Below are positions 5,716 through 9,266 of a DNA stretch of 64,000 bases, piece by piece. The stretch's first letter is position 1. Each line of letters opens with the position of its first letter. Below the pieces are notes generated by a model. It ran no database searches and was not told the DNA's origin. It was given only the letters and a program-made list of their open reading frames with translations. The position numbers and the translations under genes were made by a program. The DNA comes from Acidobacteriota bacterium (GTDB taxonomy: Bacteria > Acidobacteriota > Terriglobia > Acidiferrales > UBA7541): the NCBI GenBank assembly GCA_018268785.1, contig JAFDVY010000002.1, positions 1 through 64,000 on the forward strand, read 5' to 3'.

Positions 5716-6495
5716 TCAGTAAGCGTGAAAAAATCCTCTGGACCGCTGCAGAGAGACTTCGATCCCGAACAGCTTTCTTAGGTTCGCTTCAGTCAGGACC
5801 GCTTCCTTAGGGCCGTCCAGAAGGATTCCGCCGCCTCGCAGCAGGATTATCCTCTCCATCTCAGGAATAATTTCATTCACATGGTGCGTCACCAGCAAAA
5901 TCGCCAGCCCGGACTGAGCCAATTCCCGCATCGTATCCCGTAACTGAAATTGCGCCGCAATATCCAAAGCATTGCTCGGCTCATCGAATAGCAGCGTCTT
6001 CGGCTCGTGCACCAGCGCCCGCGCAATTAAAGTCCGCTTCGCTTCTCCGCTCGACATGTGCATCACGCAGCGGTCCGCCAGATGCGAAATTCCCAGCCTC
6101 TCCAAAGCCGCGTCGCTTCGACGCAATAATTCCGTGTCCGGCCGATGATGCGGAAAAATCCGCGTGCTGCTGAAAAACCCGCTGAGCACAACGTCCCGCC
6201 CCGTCGCATCCGTCGTGCACGCCGCCAGCAAATCCGGCGAAACAATCCCCAGCAAATTCCGCAGCTCGAACACATCCCATCGCTCGCGCCCCAGAATCGC
6301 CATCGACGATCCTTCGCGCGCCAGCGGATAGCACTCTCGCGTAATCGTTTTGATCAGCGTGGATTTCCCGCATCCATTCGGCCCCAGGATACAAACGTGC
6401 TCGCCCGTCTCGATCCGCAGCGACACATTTTCCAGCGCGGCGCGTTCTCCGCGCATCACCGTCACACGATTCAGCTCAATCAGCGGCGAACTCAT
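5716..6495 (-). CDS. Orphan ABC transporter ATP-binding protein
   Basis: A 259-residue ABC ATPase with Walker A GPNGCGKST (38-46), a signature written MSSGE (147-151) instead of LSGGQ, Walker B LLFDEP (168-173), and the H-loop histidine H204. It resembles the ModF/YlmA group of soluble ABC ATPases more than a dedicated importer subunit. No permease or binding protein lies nearby, so transport is not established. The 3' end converges with the PilZ gene at a six-base gap. The upstream region holds two terminator hairpins and the candidate RNA gene, so it likely has its own promoter just before the ATG. Confidence 0.8.
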   Translation of the reverse strand: MSSPLIELNRVTVMRGERAALENVSLRIETGEHVCILGPNGCGKSTLIKTITRECYPLAREGSSMAILGRERWDVFELRNLLGIVSPDLLAACTTDATGRDVVLSGFFSSTRIFPHHRPDTELLRRSDAALERLGISHLADRCVMHMSSGEAKRTLIARALVHEPKTLLFDEPSNALDIAAQFQLRDTMRELAQSGLAILLVTHHVNEIIPEMERIILLRGGGILLDGPKEAVLTEANLRKLFGIEVSLQRSRGFFHAY

Positions 6496-6568
6496 GAACT
6501 TGGATTACTCCTCCAGAGCAACTTAGGCGCAAATACGTTCGGCTATCTTACCCAAGCTCCCCTAAAAC

Positions 6569-6592
6569 AAAAAAAGCGCCGTCTCCGGCGCC
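6569..6592 (-). terminator. Intrinsic terminator upstream of the ABC ATPase gene
   Basis: On the minus strand a perfect GCGCCG-GAGA-CGGCGC hairpin is followed by seven Ts and then GTTTT. It lies between the candidate RNA gene and the ABC ATPase start, so it would catch read-through from the RNA gene or end a short second transcript. Confidence 0.65.
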
Positions 6593-6620
6593 ATCGCTAG
6601 CTGGATCGAAAATCGAGGGG

Positions 6621-6674
6621 GGCGGTTTGAATTTCTTGGTTCGTGACACAAAAAACCAAAGATTCAAACCGTCC
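6621..6674. repeat. Long imperfect inverted repeat between two terminators
   Basis: Two arms of about 21 bases share a ten-base perfect outer stem (CGGTTTGAAT/ATTCAAACCG) and an inner stem (TTGGTT/AACCAA) around an A-rich loop. The element fills the gap between the candidate RNA's terminator and the next one. It has no coding potential on either strand. It may be a processing or stability element, or a decayed mobile hairpin. Confidence 0.5.
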
Positions 6675-6677
6675 TGC

Positions 6678-6848
6678 AAAAAAAATAGGAGGCAAAACCT
6701 TTTGGATTTCGCCTCCCGGGGTGGGGTGTTACGGGACGTTGCCCTCAGCAGCCGCGCCTCCCTGCCCTGCCAGGCAGGGGCGCCGCATCACTCGCGTGTT
6801 GCTTTGCCGCATCGCGGTAAGAGACTTACCACCAAAGGGCTCGTCTGT
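6678..6848 (-). ncRNA. Candidate structured non-coding RNA, family not recognised
   Basis: The minus strand carries a promoter, about 130 bases of hairpin-rich sequence without a convincing reading frame, and an intrinsic terminator. From the 5' end: an outer CCC..GGTGG segment that can pair with CCACC..GGG before the terminator; a perfect hairpin GGTAAG-TCT-CTTACC; two direct copies of GATGCGGC; and a long G+C hairpin built on GCGCC..CCTGCC/GGCAGG..GGCGC. The terminator stem GGAGGCGAAATCC/GGTTTTGCCTCC is followed by eight Ts. Size and architecture would fit 6S RNA, but no conserved 6S bubble was recognised. SRP RNA, tmRNA, RNase P and common riboswitch cores were looked for by eye and not found. 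Confidence 0.6.
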
Positions 6849-6854
6849 GAGCGT

Positions 6855-6883
6855 TATGTAGCACCTGGGCTTGCCGCTGTCAA
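6855..6883 (-). promoter_or_regulatory. Promoter of the candidate RNA gene
   Basis: TTGACA and TACATA are 17 bases apart on the minus strand, with TG one base before the -10 box (extended -10). It begins 25 bases beyond the stop of the hybrid kinase gene, so the RNA does not need read-through from that operon. Predicted start is near 6848. Confidence 0.6.
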
Positions 6884-6908
6884 CGCTTATCTGGGTGATA
6901 ACCTTTTC

Positions 6909-9266
6909 CTATGGACCATCCAGCACCTGCCTTACCAGCTTCCCCAAAGCCGTCGGGCTATACGGCTTCTGCAGATATGTCAATTCCGTGCTCGACGCGG
7001 GAAGTCCCGTCGAATCCTGGCTATACCCGCTGGTAAAAATCACCGGAAGCCCTGGGAATCTCTCCAGCAACCGGGTCGACGTGGCTACTCCTCCCAGCTT
7101 GGGCATGACCACATCCAGTACCGCTAGCGCCGGCTTCTCGCGCTCCACAAGTTGCAAAGCCTCTTCTCCGTCCGCTGCCGAGAGCACACGGTATCCCAGA
7201 TTCATCAGCGTGTGCCGCGCCATCTCCCGGATCGATTCGTGGTCCTCGGCAAGCAAGACTAGTTCCGTCCCATGTGGTTGCGAGGCGATCACTGTAACGT
7301 TGAGATTCGCCGCCGCTGGAATTCCTTCACTGGCCGAGGACGGCAAATACACGCGAAATAATGTCCCTTGGCCAACCTCGCTGTATACATGGACGAATCC
7401 CCCGTGCTGCTTCACGATGCCATATACCGAAGCCAGCCCCATCCCTGTGCCTTTTCCAGGCTCCTTGGTCGTAAAGAACGGTTCGAAGATTCGCTCTTTC
7501 GTTTCCGCATCCATTCCAATTCCTGTGTCCGATACCGAAAGCACGGCGTATTTCCCAGGCGCCACGTGCGGATAGAACCGGCAATAGGCATCGTCCAATT
7601 CCACCATCTCCGTTTCGATCAGCAATCTTCCGCCCTTCGGCATGGCATCTCGCGCATTCAGGCACAGGTTCATGATCACCTGTTCGATCTGCGTCGCGTC
7701 CGCCTTGATCGGCTCCAGCGGCACCGTCGTGATTTTCAGCTCGATATCCTCGCTGATTACCCGGTCCAGAAACGTGACCAGTCCGTTCGCAATTCCGTTC
7801 AAATCGATTTGCCGCGGCTGCAGCACCTGTCTCCTGGCAAATGCAAGCAGTTCCCGCGTCAGCGCAGCCGCTCGTTCCCCCTGCTCCCTGATTTTAGTGA
7901 ACCGATCCGCAACCTGTGGATTCGCGCTGCTTTGGTCGTACCCAATTTCCGCCCAGCCCAGAATCGCCCCGATCACATTGTTAAAATCGTGCGCAATTCC
8001 TCCCGCCAGTTGTCCGATCGCTTCGAATTTCTGCGCCTGCACCAGTTGTCTTTCCATTGCGCGTAATTCCGTAATGTCTTCTGCGATTAGTTCGAATTCC
8101 GGCTCGCCCTCTTTGCGTTTTGTCTTTCTCATTTGCAGCCGTACACTGACAAATCCTCCATCGAGCCTCCTCCATTCTGCTTCAGTATCGCGCACTTGCC
8201 CGGCTTGCTGGCAGGACTGGAAAAGTTTTGCGTGCTGCTCCGGAAATCGGAAAATGTCCCGGAACAGATGCAAGCCGCGCAACTGTTGCATCGTGTCGCA
8301 ACCCAAAATTCGCAATAACGCGGGGTTTGCGTCGAGGAAGTCGCCGTCTGCATTCAGCCGGCAGATTCCATACGAAGAGTTCTCCACCAAGTCCCGGTTT
8401 CTCTCTTCGGAGTCTTGCAGTGCCCGCTCGGCTTGTTCCCGCTCGGTAAGGTCCACCATCATCACACACGCCGCTTTTTTCCCTCCCAGCGGTTCGGGCA
8501 GGGGGAAAAAACTCGCCAGGTAGTAGCGCGTTTCAAAGGGCGGAGCCGCCCGGCGGACCCTTGCCTCCAGGTTCAGAACGGGTTCTCCGGTTTCAAACAC
8601 CCGTCTGTAGATATGCTCCGATTCTCTGGCAGCTTCCGGCACAAGTTCGTAGAGCGATCTTCCAACGTGGCTTTCCGCTGTGATCCCGTGATTCTTCGCC
8701 ATCGCGTCGTTTACCCGCAAAAAATTCAGTTGTTCGTCCAGGACGGCGAAACACACCGGCGTCGTCCTGTAAAGCAGGTCCAGCTCCGTGAATTGTTCTC
8801 TTGCTTTCGCTTCGCTCTCTGCCAGCGCATTCATGGCCGTTGCCGCATCTTCCCGCAGCCTCTTTTCCTGCAAGGATCGCGCTATCGCCAGTGGCAGCCG
8901 TTCCAGATGGCCTTTCAGAACGTAGTCGCTGATCCCTTGCTTGATACATTCCACCGCGGCTTCTTCGCCCAACGTTCCCGTCACCAGCACAAACGGGATG
9001 TCTCGTCGCGAATCCCGCAAATATACAAACGCGTCCCGTCCCGTCCAATCCGGCAGCCGGTAGTCGGACAGAATCAGGTCGAAGCTCTCCTCTTCCAGTG
9101 CCCGTATGAATTCCAGCCGGTTCCTTGCGAATCTCGGCTCAAGGACGATTCCGTTGCTCCGCAAATGATGCAGGATCAGTTCCGCGTCGCTCCCCGCATC
9201 TTCCAGAAGCAAGGCGCGCAGGGAAATCGCCGTGTCGGATGTCGTAATCGTGGCCCGGGTCGTCAT
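6909..9266 (-). CDS. Hybrid histidine kinase (REC-PAS-PAS-HisKA-HATPase-REC)
   Basis: A 785-residue soluble kinase. Domains in order: N-terminal receiver (about 16-135, phospho-acceptor D68 in LILSDYRLP), PAS (about 160-275), PAS (about 285-400), HisKA with H426 in GGIAHDFNN, an HATPase_c domain with DTGIGM and GKGTGMGLA boxes, and a C-terminal receiver (acceptor D718 in VLDVVMP). No membrane segment is present, so it senses an internal signal or receives phosphate at its N-terminal receiver from another kinase. It is the last gene of a four-gene signalling operon and starts four bases after the single-domain receiver gene. The HDFNN-type kinase is common in phosphorelays. Confidence 0.92.
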   Translation of the reverse strand: MTTRATITTSDTAISLRALLLEDAGSDAELILHHLRSNGIVLEPRFARNRLEFIRALEEESFDLILSDYRLPDWTGRDAFVYLRDSRRDIPFVLVTGTLGEEAAVECIKQGISDYVLKGHLERLPLAIARSLQEKRLREDAATAMNALAESEAKAREQFTELDLLYRTTPVCFAVLDEQLNFLRVNDAMAKNHGITAESHVGRSLYELVPEAARESEHIYRRVFETGEPVLNLEARVRRAAPPFETRYYLASFFPLPEPLGGKKAACVMMVDLTEREQAERALQDSEERNRDLVENSSYGICRLNADGDFLDANPALLRILGCDTMQQLRGLHLFRDIFRFPEQHAKLFQSCQQAGQVRDTEAEWRRLDGGFVSVRLQMRKTKRKEGEPEFELIAEDITELRAMERQLVQAQKFEAIGQLAGGIAHDFNNVIGAILGWAEIGYDQSSANPQVADRFTKIREQGERAAALTRELLAFARRQVLQPRQIDLNGIANGLVTFLDRVISEDIELKITTVPLEPIKADATQIEQVIMNLCLNARDAMPKGGRLLIETEMVELDDAYCRFYPHVAPGKYAVLSVSDTGIGMDAETKERIFEPFFTTKEPGKGTGMGLASVYGIVKQHGGFVHVYSEVGQGTLFRVYLPSSASEGIPAAANLNVTVIASQPHGTELVLLAEDHESIREMARHTLMNLGYRVLSAADGEEALQLVEREKPALAVLDVVMPKLGGVATSTRLLERFPGLPVIFTSGYSQDSTGLPASSTELTYLQKPYSPTALGKLVRQVLDGP

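Follow-up and report, generated by a model that had tools for sequence, protein, structure and literature searches.

Background

Small RNAs with C-rich pairing sequences have been described in two distant groups of bacteria. In Xanthomonas, sX13 is an abundant stand-alone sRNA of 115 nt which carries C-rich apical loops in three stem-loops, and represses mRNAs with G-rich motifs near the start codon, Hfq not being needed (PMC3771888). In Staphylococcus, the Fur-regulated IsrR has three C-rich regions, conserved and single-stranded, which pair at Shine-Dalgarno sequences; the RNA ends in its own, poorly conserved terminator (PMC9410917). No sRNA report for the order considered here was found in the literature searched for Acidoferrales and sRNA.

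Here, we describe a locus on the minus strand (6678-6883) of a 64,000-nt stretch of DNA, referred to as the window, from a genome of Candidatus Acidiferrales (Acidobacteriota). The first-pass annotation of this DNA had proposed a free-standing structured RNA gene of unknown family. Conservation and covariation strongly support this proposal, as does the lack of any Rfam match, and we regard it as almost certain that the locus holds a real, new and free-standing small-RNA gene. The RNA family is new to Rfam, but of a familiar type.

Promoter, terminator and distribution of the RNA gene

The annotated promoter, TTGACA and TACATA separated by a 17-nt spacer, was confirmed in the sequence (-35 at 6883-6878, TACATA at 6860-6855, minus strand) and is conserved among relatives, in which the exact TTGACA copies stand 16-17 nt ahead of a -10 according to script-scored spacing. 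The simple promoter scan missed it because the -10 has no T at position 6. Judged from the sequence, this is a strong, sigma-70-like promoter and the RNA gene's own, and transcription would be expected to start near 6849. Between the -10 and the terminator stem lie about 130 folded bases. The terminator with its T8, likewise annotated before, was found again both by sequence reading and by a terminator scan, with a 13-bp stem at 6717-6687 and T8 at 6685-6678. Its 3' arm CACCUCCUUU is similar to the tail of 16S rRNA; a role as an anti-Shine-Dalgarno mimic was considered and rejected, since the GCCUCCU of the window is replaced by GCGCUCCC in genus g5, where the changes are compensated, and therefore it is the stem that is conserved rather than the sequence. 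The features of the locus are collected in Table 1.

Table 1. Features of the small-RNA locus in the window.
Feature	Position	Strand	Evidence
-35 element TTGACA	6878..6883	-	read from sequence; exact in 65/67 relatives
Extended -10 TGC-TACATA	6855..6863	-	read from sequence; TGnTA conserved throughout genus
RNA gene, ~170 nt	6678..6849	-	relatives in 67/89 family genomes; noncoding; conserved vs flanks
Closing helix P1, 5' strand GACGAGCCCUUU	6834..6845	-	9/11 pairs changed on both sides, model-fitted alignment
GGTAAGTCTCTTACC hairpin (GGTAAG/CTTACC)	6816..6830	-	this form shared with L003 and L005 alone (28 genus sequences)
Helix P4 hairpin, CCUGCCUGGCAGGGCAGG core	6760..6780	-	near-invariant; most conserved 5'-domain part in genus
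Closing helix P1, 3' strand GAGGGCAACGUC	6735..6746	-	9/11 pairs changed on both sides, model-fitted alignment
C-rich linker GUAACACCCCACCCC, proposed seed	6718..6732	-	conserved, 8 genera; predicted unpaired 0.97
Intrinsic terminator GGGAGGCGAAAUCC-loop-GGUUUUGCCUCC + U8	6678..6717	-	8/14 pairs covary, 52 relatives

A bare-DNA search of the 89 genomes of the window's family gave 37 matches, and a covariance model built from 28 of these extended the relatives to 67 genomes of eight genera, with essentially a single copy in each. The RNA is near-universal within the window's genus, and the covariance-model search, which covered 399 genomes in total, did not match it in the other ~310 genomes of the class sample. 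A second model, representing the 3' module, agreed with this distribution; in genera g2, g4, g6, g7 and g8, as well as part of the g11 genomes, the 3' module is missing or has diverged too far. Signs of a wider family beyond the order were sought and dismissed: the best matches of the 3'-module model that were inspected are ordinary mRNA terminators or chance, and the non-acidobacterial matches of a collection pattern scan look like chance as well, about 45 being expected by a rough estimate. There was no plasmid match for the locus. Across 27 genus loci, the median pairwise identity of promoter and RNA is 0.80, while that of the flanks (150 bases per side) is 0.60 and 0.59, against 0.59 for shuffled DNA.

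Other terminator-associated elements were observed in the relatives. At L278-L281, L285 and L287-L292 (~1400-1580, oriented), the 3'-UTR of a gene ending ...DEKWRKYLFY contains a conserved element, GGACACACCCCGGGAAG or something closely similar, together with a terminator; these loci belong to genera g2, g4, g7 and g11 of the same family, and the element could be a second, 3'-UTR-derived RNA. Near position 1500 of L284, L293 and L295, from two genera, a GCAAC-CCCCACCCC-like tract precedes the terminator hairpin, and the gene ahead of these terminators resembles phoU (ERIADHATNIAEDIIFWVRGLDVRHGRA, judged by eye).

Fold and covariation

As annotated, the RNA folds strongly, with an energy of -77.8 kcal/mol compared with -62.1 +/- 4.6 in dinucleotide shuffles (z = -3.4). 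The folds predicted across the genus mostly agree: P1 encloses P2 (GGUGGU/GCCGCC) and a three-way junction with P3 and P4, followed by the C-rich linker and the terminator, and the junction makes up the 5' two thirds of the RNA. Covariation analysis, one of the checks named in the first-pass annotation, was run on genus alignments, and the helices covary. MAFFT, blind to structure, gave an alignment in which 90% of cells pair, versus 46-51% when the structure is slid. Eight pairs are changed on both sides there, a number equalled by 22 of 500 shuffles and by some slid versions and thus not clearly above the controls; taken alone, this alignment is therefore modest evidence. The model-fitted alignment of 33 sequences, which leans towards the structure, has 30 of 56 pairs changed on both sides, whereas its shuffles reach 10.9 +/- 2.3 (none of 500 attains 30) and its slid versions at most 17. 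In the same alignment P4, laid out as CCUGCC-UGGC-AGGGCAGG, has 95.7% of its cells paired and 8 of 11 pairs changed on both sides. The terminator stem covaries independently (Table 1). The predicted three-way-junction fold and the terminator are supported by covariation in these alignments.

The earlier claim that the outer 5' and 3' segments pair was right, as P1 covaries. Two details of that reading are present in the window but are unimportant, as they lack conservation and are not what defines the RNA. Of the 27 other genus sequences, just two share the GGTAAG/CTTACC hairpin in this form; the remaining ones put these bases into helices P2 and P3, and a variant fold around P2/P3 may be adopted by the window copy and two relatives. 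The duplicated octamer GATGCGGC (6782-6789 and 6806-6813) is likewise there, yet it is not conserved.

A conserved C-rich linker behind a changing 5' domain

Between genera, the linker and the terminator are the best conserved part of the RNA. Genera g3, g5 and g9-g13 have a different or much shorter 5' domain, with transcripts of ~105-190 nt, and what is kept is the promoter, the C-rich linker GCAACAnCCCCACCCACCCC and the GGGAGG terminator. The linker is predicted to be unpaired, at 0.97 in the window RNA and a median of 0.83 in 65 relatives, compared with 0.31 for the 5' domains. It is predicted to be partly to mostly paired in genera g3 and g5 and partly paired in g11, and in these three genera the predicted pairing joins GUGG/GGUGG of the 5' part to CCAC of the linker. 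We also asked about C-rich tracts as a general terminator feature and discarded the idea; none was seen at terminators that the model had not picked (a small test on mixed bins).

The exposed, conserved linker and the precedents of sX13 and IsrR led us to propose that the RNA is probably a trans-acting antisense sRNA with the linker as its seed. What characterizes a C-rich sRNA of this kind, an independent promoter with an intrinsic terminator and a conserved C-rich motif that is unpaired according to predicted pairing, is found here. In the proposed mechanism, a single-copy gene would give, from its own promoter, a stable noncoding RNA of ~170 nt ended by the intrinsic terminator. The single-stranded linker would pair with G-rich stretches at or near the ribosome-binding sites of several mRNAs and block their translation, and the 5' domain may give the RNA stability or bind a protein. 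We infer expression, RNA-RNA pairing, repression and targets of the window RNA from these features. In 36 genus genomes, with RNA genes set aside, perfect 12-base complements of the linker were not commoner than those of a reversed control, in a search that covered long perfect complements only, real seeds being of 7-9 bases.

Canonical Hfq was not detected in the window's genus, whose sole matches are divergent and Hfq-like, near the Pfam cut-off (G000:C314:9387-9530 and relatives, 22-29 bits). Canonical Hfq, at 80-90 bits, is encoded in G165, G254 and G297, from two other families of the order.

Alternative readings

A divergent housekeeping RNA (6S or SRP RNA), or the known Acido-1 RNA, would agree with the size and the near-universal single copy in the genus, but this identity is scarcely credible. 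The comparison with 4227 Rfam families, including 6S RNA (RF00013), gave no match at the locus, near it or in relatives, and RF00013 did not match window 6400-7100 even at E 10. A separate 6S candidate lies in the same genome (G000:C111:50002-50218, RF00013 E 7e-5, below cut-off), and among 61 sampled genomes of the family, 47 give an RF00013 match, above the cut-off in 31; the suggestion of a divergent 6S RNA was thereby refuted. SRP RNA (RF00169) was rejected on the same grounds, its gene being found at G000:C78:4367-4465, and Acido-1 (RF01686) matched neither the locus nor any sampled family genome. A chance Rfam match to mir-3047 (E 0.0002, far below cut-off) is due to a long and almost perfect inverted repeat, GGCGGTTTGAATTTCTTGGTT...AACCAAAGATTCAAACCG, at window 6619-6677; this repeat separates the RNA gene from the ABC gene and may be what is left of a mobile repeat. 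Equally hard to credit is a short mRNA for a small protein: some copies contain short ORFs, but these are chance, no ORF is common to the genus copies, and 94% of the pairwise indels at the genus loci are not multiples of three. The gene context bears on whether the RNA might be a cis-acting leader or attenuator, in which a conditional terminator would control the downstream ABC ATPase gene in response to a signal sensed by the 5' domain. By Pfam domains, the upstream gene encodes a PAS hybrid histidine kinase, a neighbour that the window shares with many, not all, genera, and the downstream gene of the window is a lone ABC ATPase gene. The order of promoter, fold and terminator is compatible with an attenuator, and of the 28 genus loci retrieved first, 25 have the ABC gene after the RNA in the same orientation. 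Yet other genes, one on the opposite strand, displace it in L104 and L105, it does not adjoin the RNA in L065, L066 and L070, and in other genera the neighbour is not an ABC gene and the next gene often runs the opposite way. Moreover, the minus strand of the window has another terminator-like hairpin (6592-6575), downstream of the RNA gene and ahead of the ABC ATPase start. With no constant downstream gene, the RNA stands alone and is not a leader, a role we consider very improbable; the previously suggested links to the ABC ATPase and to the signalling operon proved to be positional only.

The main rival of the antisense reading is protein titration, in which a KH, cold-shock or Sm-like protein would be bound by the C-rich linker or by the junction, with no mRNA pairing. 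The strong conservation of the linker, for which no complementary target was found, and the 5' fold, which is large and conserved within the window's genus, speak for such a role. However, the 5' domain differs from genus to genus, and each RNA offers one C-rich site, while RNA sponges usually carry repeated binding sites; on balance, we find titration unlikely. The turnover of the 5' domain and the pairing predicted in g3, g5 and g11 could also be read as a free-standing RNA switch, whose fast-changing 5' domain would sense a genus-specific signal and hide or free an invariant C-rich seed. We hold this model to be improbable; if true, evolution would be swapping sensors on a fixed regulatory tail.

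Significance and comparison with known systems

The RNA family is missing from Rfam and has members in eight genera of a soil order that is abundant and for the most part uncultured. Should the antisense action that we favour be true, the RNA would open a way into post-transcriptional control in bacteria whose only Hfq-like protein found is divergent, and would exemplify an sRNA in which the 5' domain is exchanged and the seed and terminator stay fixed.

Acido-1 (RF01686) is, like the window RNA, a noncoding RNA known from Acidobacteria, but its model has 64 positions, it belongs to other families of the class and no sampled genome of the window's own family has it. With 6S RNA (RF00013), the window RNA shares size, single copy and a closing helix, and differs from it in lacking an RF00013 match and in coexisting with a 6S candidate elsewhere in the genome. 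The likeness to sX13 lies in the stand-alone gene and the exposed C-rich motif, the exposure being predicted for the window RNA. In contrast to sX13, the window RNA has one C-rich linker, placed beside the terminator and after a three-way junction; it comes from another phylum, and homology is not claimed. In turn, IsrR and the window RNA both have a conserved C-rich sequence, predicted to be single-stranded in the window RNA as it is in IsrR, and their own terminator, yet the terminator is poorly conserved in IsrR, whereas terminator and linker are the best conserved elements of the window RNA.
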